Positions 1,187 to 1,335 of a stretch of 37,456 nucleotides of DNA are shown in pieces. How positions within the stretch are numbered: position 1 is the stretch's first letter; every line of letters starts with the position of its first letter. Made by a program: the position numbers and the translations under genes. The stretch covers positions 1-37,456 of the forward strand of contig JAQWLZ010000069.1 of NCBI GenBank assembly GCA_029247025.1. Reading direction: 5' to 3'. Under the pieces are notes generated by a model. It searched no databases, was not told where the DNA came from, and worked only from the letters and a program-made list of their open reading frames with translations. Origin of the DNA: Alphaproteobacteria bacterium (lineage in GTDB: Bacteria > Pseudomonadota > Alphaproteobacteria > TMED109).

Positions 1187-1300
1187 TTTATTTGCCCTCC
1201 TTTGAGCGACTAATATTGAAAGCCCTAATATTGGCACTTTCTATTAATAAATATCTAATATAAATTAGATTGCTGAAGATGATCCAATAGGCATCATCTA
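1187..1300 (-). promoter_or_regulatory. Candidate ROSE-like RNA thermometer in the ibpA leader
   Basis: The predicted leader of about 114 nt can fold into successive hairpins. The first is at 1277-1299, a 9-bp stem with one bulge and a UAUU loop. The second is at 1253-1270, a 7-bp stem AUCUAAU/AUUAGAU with a 4-nt loop. A weaker element contains two AAUAUU copies. The last is a short hairpin in which CGCUC (minus strand, 1204-1208) faces GAGGG of the Shine-Dalgarno sequence across an AAAG loop. The motif UCGCU at 1205-1209 fits the U(U/C)GCU signature of ROSE elements, and the G opposite G in the stem is also a ROSE trait. ROSE elements are known to control small heat-shock genes in alphaproteobacteria. 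The folding was done by eye. Confidence 0.5.
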
Positions 1301-1306
1301 TCAAAT

Positions 1307-1335
1307 ATATGGTGATTATTATTAGTTTTTACAAG
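1307..1335 (-). promoter_or_regulatory. Sigma-32 (RpoH)-type promoter of ibpA
   Basis: On the minus strand CTTGTAA (1329-1335) is followed after 14 bases by CACCATAT (1307-1314). The RpoH consensus is CTTGAAA, a spacer of about 11-16 bases, then CCCCATNT, so each box differs by one base. The predicted transcript would start near 1300, right before the first hairpin of the leader. Confidence 0.7.

Follow-up and report, generated by a model that had tools for sequence, protein, structure and literature searches.

ROSE elements and the leader of hsp20

ROSE-type RNA thermometers are defined by a U(U/C)GCU sequence that pairs imperfectly with the Shine-Dalgarno sequence in the 3′-most hairpin and leaves a bulged G (PMC11342760, PMC3669281). 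ROSE elements are found 5′ of small heat-shock genes and comprise two to four hairpins with conserved pairing. The hairpins upstream of the Shine-Dalgarno hairpin are said to have a role that is incompletely understood (PMC3669281). Alphaproteobacterial ROSE elements are represented in Rfam by RF00435, with ROSE1 of Bradyrhizobium japonicum hspA as the type member, and the Escherichia coli ibpA thermometer by RF01832 (ROSE_2). The short ROSE-like thermometers of Pseudomonas ibpA consist of two hairpins and combine a U(U/C)GCU thermometer with sigma-32 transcription (PMC3669281). In the ROSE-G thermometers of ABC transporter genes, the imperfect Shine-Dalgarno hairpin contains two opposing bulged G and no wobble pair (PMC12857270).

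We analysed a stretch of 37,456 nucleotides (the window) from an alphaproteobacterial draft genome, in which all features described below lie on the minus strand. The leader in front of its hsp20 gene almost certainly belongs to the ROSE family as a divergent member, which the standard RNA-family search misses. The region as a whole very probably consists of a sigma-32 promoter and, downstream of it, a ROSE-type RNA thermometer with four hairpins, which would control the translation of Hsp20/IbpA in response to temperature.

Like the RF00435 elements, which have three to four hairpins, the leader is located directly before an Hsp20 gene. It shares with them a first hairpin topped by CC/GG and containing a bulged G, a last hairpin holding UYGCU, a bulged G and the Shine-Dalgarno sequence, and full-length sub-threshold matches to the model in leaders of the same family. 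It differs from them in being very AT-rich (about 31 % GC) and itself below detection, in the short outer stem of hairpin IV (three pairs) and in the nearly fixed sequence of hairpin III. The E. coli ibpA thermometer has a bulged-G Shine-Dalgarno hairpin of comparable predicted stability and a bulged-G hairpin upstream, but the other upstream hairpins and the spacing are different and RF01832 has no match in the window. The control by sigma-32 together with a U(U/C)GCU thermometer is shared with the Pseudomonas elements, whereas the number of hairpins (four) is not. An imperfect Shine-Dalgarno hairpin is also common to ROSE-G, but a classification of the leader as ROSE-G was rejected, since only one bulged G is present and a U-G pair occurs.

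The hsp20 gene and its promoter

The gene downstream of the leader (1186-707) starts with AUG and encodes an hsp20/ibpA-type small heat-shock protein of 159 aa, which hits Pfam PF00011 (HSP20) with an E-value of 8.7e-18. At an E-value of 1e-3, hsp20 is a single-copy gene in the 1.5-Mb draft genome. Among named relatives, the closest are draft genomes of marine alphaproteobacteria, e.g. TMED109, with a 97 % identical protein, and MarineAlpha9_Bin3. In one draft genome (G001), hsp20 and an identical leader are present on two contigs (G001:C7 and G001:C27, leaders L008 and L007); either the gene was duplicated recently or the assembly is at fault. Downstream of hsp20 at the L007 locus of the SP94 genome (2705-2870), we noticed two tandem glutamine riboswitch aptamers scoring 64.1 and 55.6 bits.

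A sigma-32-type promoter (1335-1307) is situated about 120 nt upstream of hsp20 and leaves a leader of about 114 nt. The −35 element CTTGTAA (1335-1329), read directly from the sequence, is separated by a 14-nt spacer from the −10 element CACCATAT (1314-1307), which agrees in 7 of 8 positions with the consensus CTTGAA-N13-18-CNCCATAT (PMC3669281). The preliminary description of this DNA had called the promoter near-consensus, which is confirmed. The promoter is present in all nine aligned leaders (see below) with a similar −10 element and a spacer of 14 or 16 nt, and the −35 element is ATTGAAA in SZUA-1021 and CTTG(T/A)AA in the eight others. The conserved −10 element ends just 5′ of hairpin I; transcription would start near 1300, with hairpin I beginning at or beside the start.

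Both features expected of a member of the sigma-32 (RpoH) regulon are present, as the genome contains, besides the promoter consensus, an rpoH gene (356.6 bits against a curated cut-off of 323.1). A second, weaker sigma-32-like gene was also found. The loose pattern CTTGNAA-N13-16-CCATNT occurs at 10 sites in 1.5 Mb, compared with 5 for the reversed pattern, and with such rarity a chance match at the position of the leader is unlikely. In a crude test, none of the other sites in the genome could be shown to lie upstream of a known heat-shock gene, so the pattern alone is weak and the promoter call is carried by its conservation. Control of transcription and translation at the same gene had been considered notable in the preliminary description. 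However, control by sigma-32 and ROSE is already documented for ibpA of Pseudomonas putida (PMC3669281), and the combination is ordinary here.

Four hairpins in the leader

The 142-nt stretch folds better than its shuffled versions (z −2.74), of which 3 out of 200 were as good. Hairpin I (AGAUGAU(G)CC-UAUU-GGAUCAUCU, 1299-1277, with the bulged G at 1292) and hairpin II (AUCUAAU-UUAU-AUUAGAU, 1270-1253) were recovered in the minimum-energy fold and by covariation, with exactly the coordinates given in the preliminary description. The layout of hairpin I is that of hairpin 1 in RF00435. Hairpin III (GAAAGU(G)CC-AAUAUUA-GGGCUUUC, 1241-1218, with the bulged G at 1235) comes from the consensus fold of the nine leaders. 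It had previously been taken for a weaker AAUAUU element, but it is in fact better conserved than either hairpin I or hairpin II.

Hairpin IV (GUC(G)CUC-AAAG-GAGGGC, 1210-1194) was obtained from the RNAalifold consensus and is the presumed thermosensor. Its six pairs are formed between GUC(G)CUC (1210-1204) and GAGGGC (1199-1194), with G1207 bulged. The leader alignment identifies UCGCU (1209-1205) as the UYGCU motif, i.e. the anti-Shine-Dalgarno sequence. The Shine-Dalgarno sequence GGAGG (1200-1196), 9 nt 5′ of the AUG, is invariant among the relatives. The motif reads UCGCU in seven of the nine leaders and UUGCU in the other two, and in the consensus fold it is paired with the Shine-Dalgarno sequence in all nine. 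The earlier proposal that UCGCU can pair with GGAGGG (1200-1195) thus stands, but not its placing of a G opposite a G, since that drawing loses the outer pairs and G1207 is better drawn as bulged.

Conservation and covariation

The alignment comprises nine leaders from one family of marine alphaproteobacteria, namely the window leader, five from the same genus and three from other genera of the family, and all of them precede small heat-shock genes. The four-hairpin structure includes 28 pairs, and 96.4 % of the cells are paired. Changes on both sides affect 10 pairs (20 cells), and the covariation is 0.340 against 0.190 in shuffles. None of 500 shuffles reached the observed values for percent paired, double changes or covariation. 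When the partners were slid by 1 to 3 bases, pairing fell to 36-56 % and covariation was at most 0.102. These many compensatory changes support the ROSE-like thermometer reading put forward in the preliminary description.

The covariation is carried by hairpins I and II, with both-side changes in six pairs of the former and four of the six pairs of the latter, while hairpin III hardly varies. In hairpin IV all cells are paired and only one-sided changes occur (U-G to U-A, C-G to U-G). We also extended the set to 14 leaders by adding five distant ones found with the model described below; here 19 pairs show double changes, although this alignment was fitted to the model and leans towards it. 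In the same model-fitted alignment the outermost pair of hairpin IV appears as G-C, C-G and A-U, and the hairpin III fold is retained with compensatory changes in the more distant leaders.

The leader might instead be conserved as coding sequence, as an N-terminal extension of Hsp20 that begins with an in-frame GTG (1237). In the window no stop codon interrupts this frame between the GTG and the AUG, and the GTG is retained in eight of the nine leaders. However, it is absent from the remaining one, and in four of the nine a frameshift or a stop codon breaks the extension ahead of the AUG. Moreover, the changes in the leaders preserve base pairs instead of the extension frame, and the Shine-Dalgarno sequence and the AUG are correctly spaced for the shorter protein. 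We rejected the coding extension, which is extremely improbable given the broken frames in relatives, and we retain the reading as a structured leader.

Only one of the seven pairs of hairpin III varies, compared with 13 of the 15 pairs that make up hairpins I and II (Fisher p 0.002, with pairs that are not independent of each other). The counterparts considered were those in the window, L002-L008, L018 and L019. The near-invariance of its sequence exceeds what pairing alone requires. The distant leaders L059 and L060 carry hairpins resembling hairpin III (AAGUGCC...GGGCUU).

The near-invariant hairpin III would be compatible with the leader being a site of protein-bound repression, instead of or besides a thermometer, at which Hsp20 or another protein blocks translation until misfolded clients titrate it away. 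In line with this, E. coli IbpA binds the leader of its own mRNA and represses translation (PMC10474464). However, such self-repression by IbpA is reported for gamma-proteobacteria, and protein binding would add to the UYGCU/Shine-Dalgarno hairpin and not replace it. We consider this explanation rather improbable and prefer the ROSE-type thermometer.

Searches with RNA family models

As anticipated in the preliminary description, sequence searches miss the leader: comparison of the window with Rfam returned no ROSE match, neither at the gathering score (45 bits for RF00435) nor at permissive thresholds up to an E-value of 10. The comparison with the ROSE models was more favourable in relatives. 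In the L018 and L019 leaders of the same family, RF00435 scored 26.9 and 26.2 bits against the cut-off of 45, with genome-wide E-values of 0.019 and 0.045. Both of these sub-threshold matches cover the model end to end (positions 1-94) and run into the Hsp20 start codon.

We built a model from the nine leaders (R1) and ran it over 385 alphaproteobacterial genomes. At an E-value of 0.1 it produced six matches, not counting two genomes that belong to the same genus as the window. The five best distant matches (E 6e-4 to 0.024) all end at an Hsp20 start codon, and two of these five leaders are also sub-threshold RF00435 matches. The sixth and weakest match (E 0.09) is not at an Hsp20 start. At an E-value of 1, R1 revealed no second ROSE element in the window's genome.

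RF00435 itself, run over the same 385 genomes, found matches in 58 of them at an E-value of 0.1, but only three were above the cut-off. Among its best 30 places, 28 precede open frames, nearly all of them with an Hsp20 N-terminus resembling that of the window. As only 3 of 385 genomes exceed the cut-off despite this association with Hsp20-type genes, the cut-off reflects the detection limit of one model and does not define ROSE. The gathering score of RF00435 is too strict for alphaproteobacteria and hides most of their ROSE elements. The membership of the window leader, itself without a match to the Rfam ROSE models, is based on the matches of its relatives and on R1. On this comparison, the leader appears to be an orthologous ROSE element that has drifted, and the failure of Rfam a limit of sensitivity.

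Occlusion of the ribosome site and predicted folding energies

Hairpin IV in isolation folds in the bulged-G form described above. Its predicted energy at 37 °C is −5.3 kcal/mol, while that of the E. coli ibpA hairpin is −4.6; other alphaproteobacterial ROSE hairpins range from −3.7 to −11.4 kcal/mol. In ViennaRNA calculations run from 5 to 60 °C, warming from 25 to 42 °C had little effect on the pairing of the Shine-Dalgarno sequence in these leaders. The positive control, the validated leader of E. coli ibpA, opened equally little in the same calculation, and the folding energies are thus uninformative on melting. Composition shuffles hide the Shine-Dalgarno sequence about as often as the real leaders do, so its occlusion is by itself no evidence.

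The pairing of the ribosome site proposed in the preliminary description was found in the nine-leader consensus, where the partner is UYGCU, and, with part of UYGCU as the partner, in the minimum-energy fold predicted for the window leader when no coding sequence was attached. When the minus-strand fold included 30 nt of coding sequence, the Shine-Dalgarno sequence of the window was predicted to pair for the most part with ACCUUUU, which lies within the gene, in place of UCGCU, and this pairing is also found in the minimum-energy fold of the 142-nt stretch.

The Shine-Dalgarno sequence might therefore be hidden mainly by the first codons, making the leader a thermometer with a switch unlike that of ROSE. 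The energy model assigns 76 % of the window's Shine-Dalgarno pairing at 37 °C to ACCUUUU. However, only in the three closest genomes does this pairing predominate (0.76, 0.64 and 0.41 at 37 °C), and in the five others examined it does not exceed 0.06, whereas the pairing with UYGCU is kept in all nine leaders. A similar artefact is seen for the E. coli leader at low temperature. Such a switch is quite improbable, more so than protein-bound repression, and the pairing with UYGCU is the preferred reading.

A recurring bulged-G hairpin

Alphaproteobacterial Hsp20 leaders contain up to three copies of one hairpin module, which consists of a stem, a bulged G, C-C/G-G or C-U/A-G, and a loop. We surveyed 29 leaders (L108-L137) chosen by protein similarity alone, which avoids selection by an RNA model. 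With a stem of at least 5 pairs, at least one copy is present in 28 of the 29 leaders, at least two in 19 and three in five. On average a leader holds 1.79 copies, compared with 0.032 in a control window taken from these loci, and nearly all of the bulged bases are G. The module is represented in the window's family by hairpins I, III and IV, the last of these with a shorter stem. The Rfam consensus displays the module in hairpin I and in the last hairpin, so the repeat is partly implicit in known models. We found no statement of the bulged-G hairpin as a repeated module in the part of the ROSE literature that was consulted.

The repetition itself is apparent from the leader sequences. On a more speculative note, ROSE leaders may be serial arrays of this one module, with the Shine-Dalgarno thermosensor as the last copy and the upstream copies sharing a function, which might be the binding of a protein such as Hsp20 or additional, cooperative temperature sensing, and for which the sequence of hairpin III would be fixed. 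This proposal is unlikely to be correct as it stands, but the recurring hairpin provides a testable lead on the purpose of the upstream ROSE hairpins.

Other Hsp20 leaders of the family show further variants. About 100 nt in front of a different Hsp20 gene, L029 and L032 contain an apparent short two-hairpin ROSE (AGGAU(G)CC..GGGUCCU followed by ACUUU(G)CUU..AAGGAGGU) without an Rfam match. L032 is predicted to fold into these two hairpins, but the minimum-energy structure of L029 does not contain them. The Hsp20 leaders of a GC-rich genus in this family (L020-L026, upstream of 1501) keep a bulged-G hairpin but lack a UYGCU facing the Shine-Dalgarno sequence, as if the thermosensor had been lost.

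Proposed mechanism and significance

Upon heat, transcription of hsp20 would first increase via RpoH, as suggested by the rpoH gene and the match to the promoter consensus. In the resulting mRNA, hairpins I to III would serve as a stable scaffold, and in hairpin IV the UCGCU pairs with the GGAGGG ribosome site, as shown by the comparison of leaders, in a helix weakened by the bulged G and the U-G pair. By analogy with validated ROSE elements, hairpin IV would open first on warming and free the ribosome site. The element very probably shares a common ancestor with other alphaproteobacterial ROSE elements and has drifted in an AT-rich lineage until it was no longer reported by the Rfam ROSE model.

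The analysis yields a model and a covarying alignment that can be used to find further ROSE elements. The range of ROSE thermometers now includes a very AT-rich, uncultured family of marine alphaproteobacteria.
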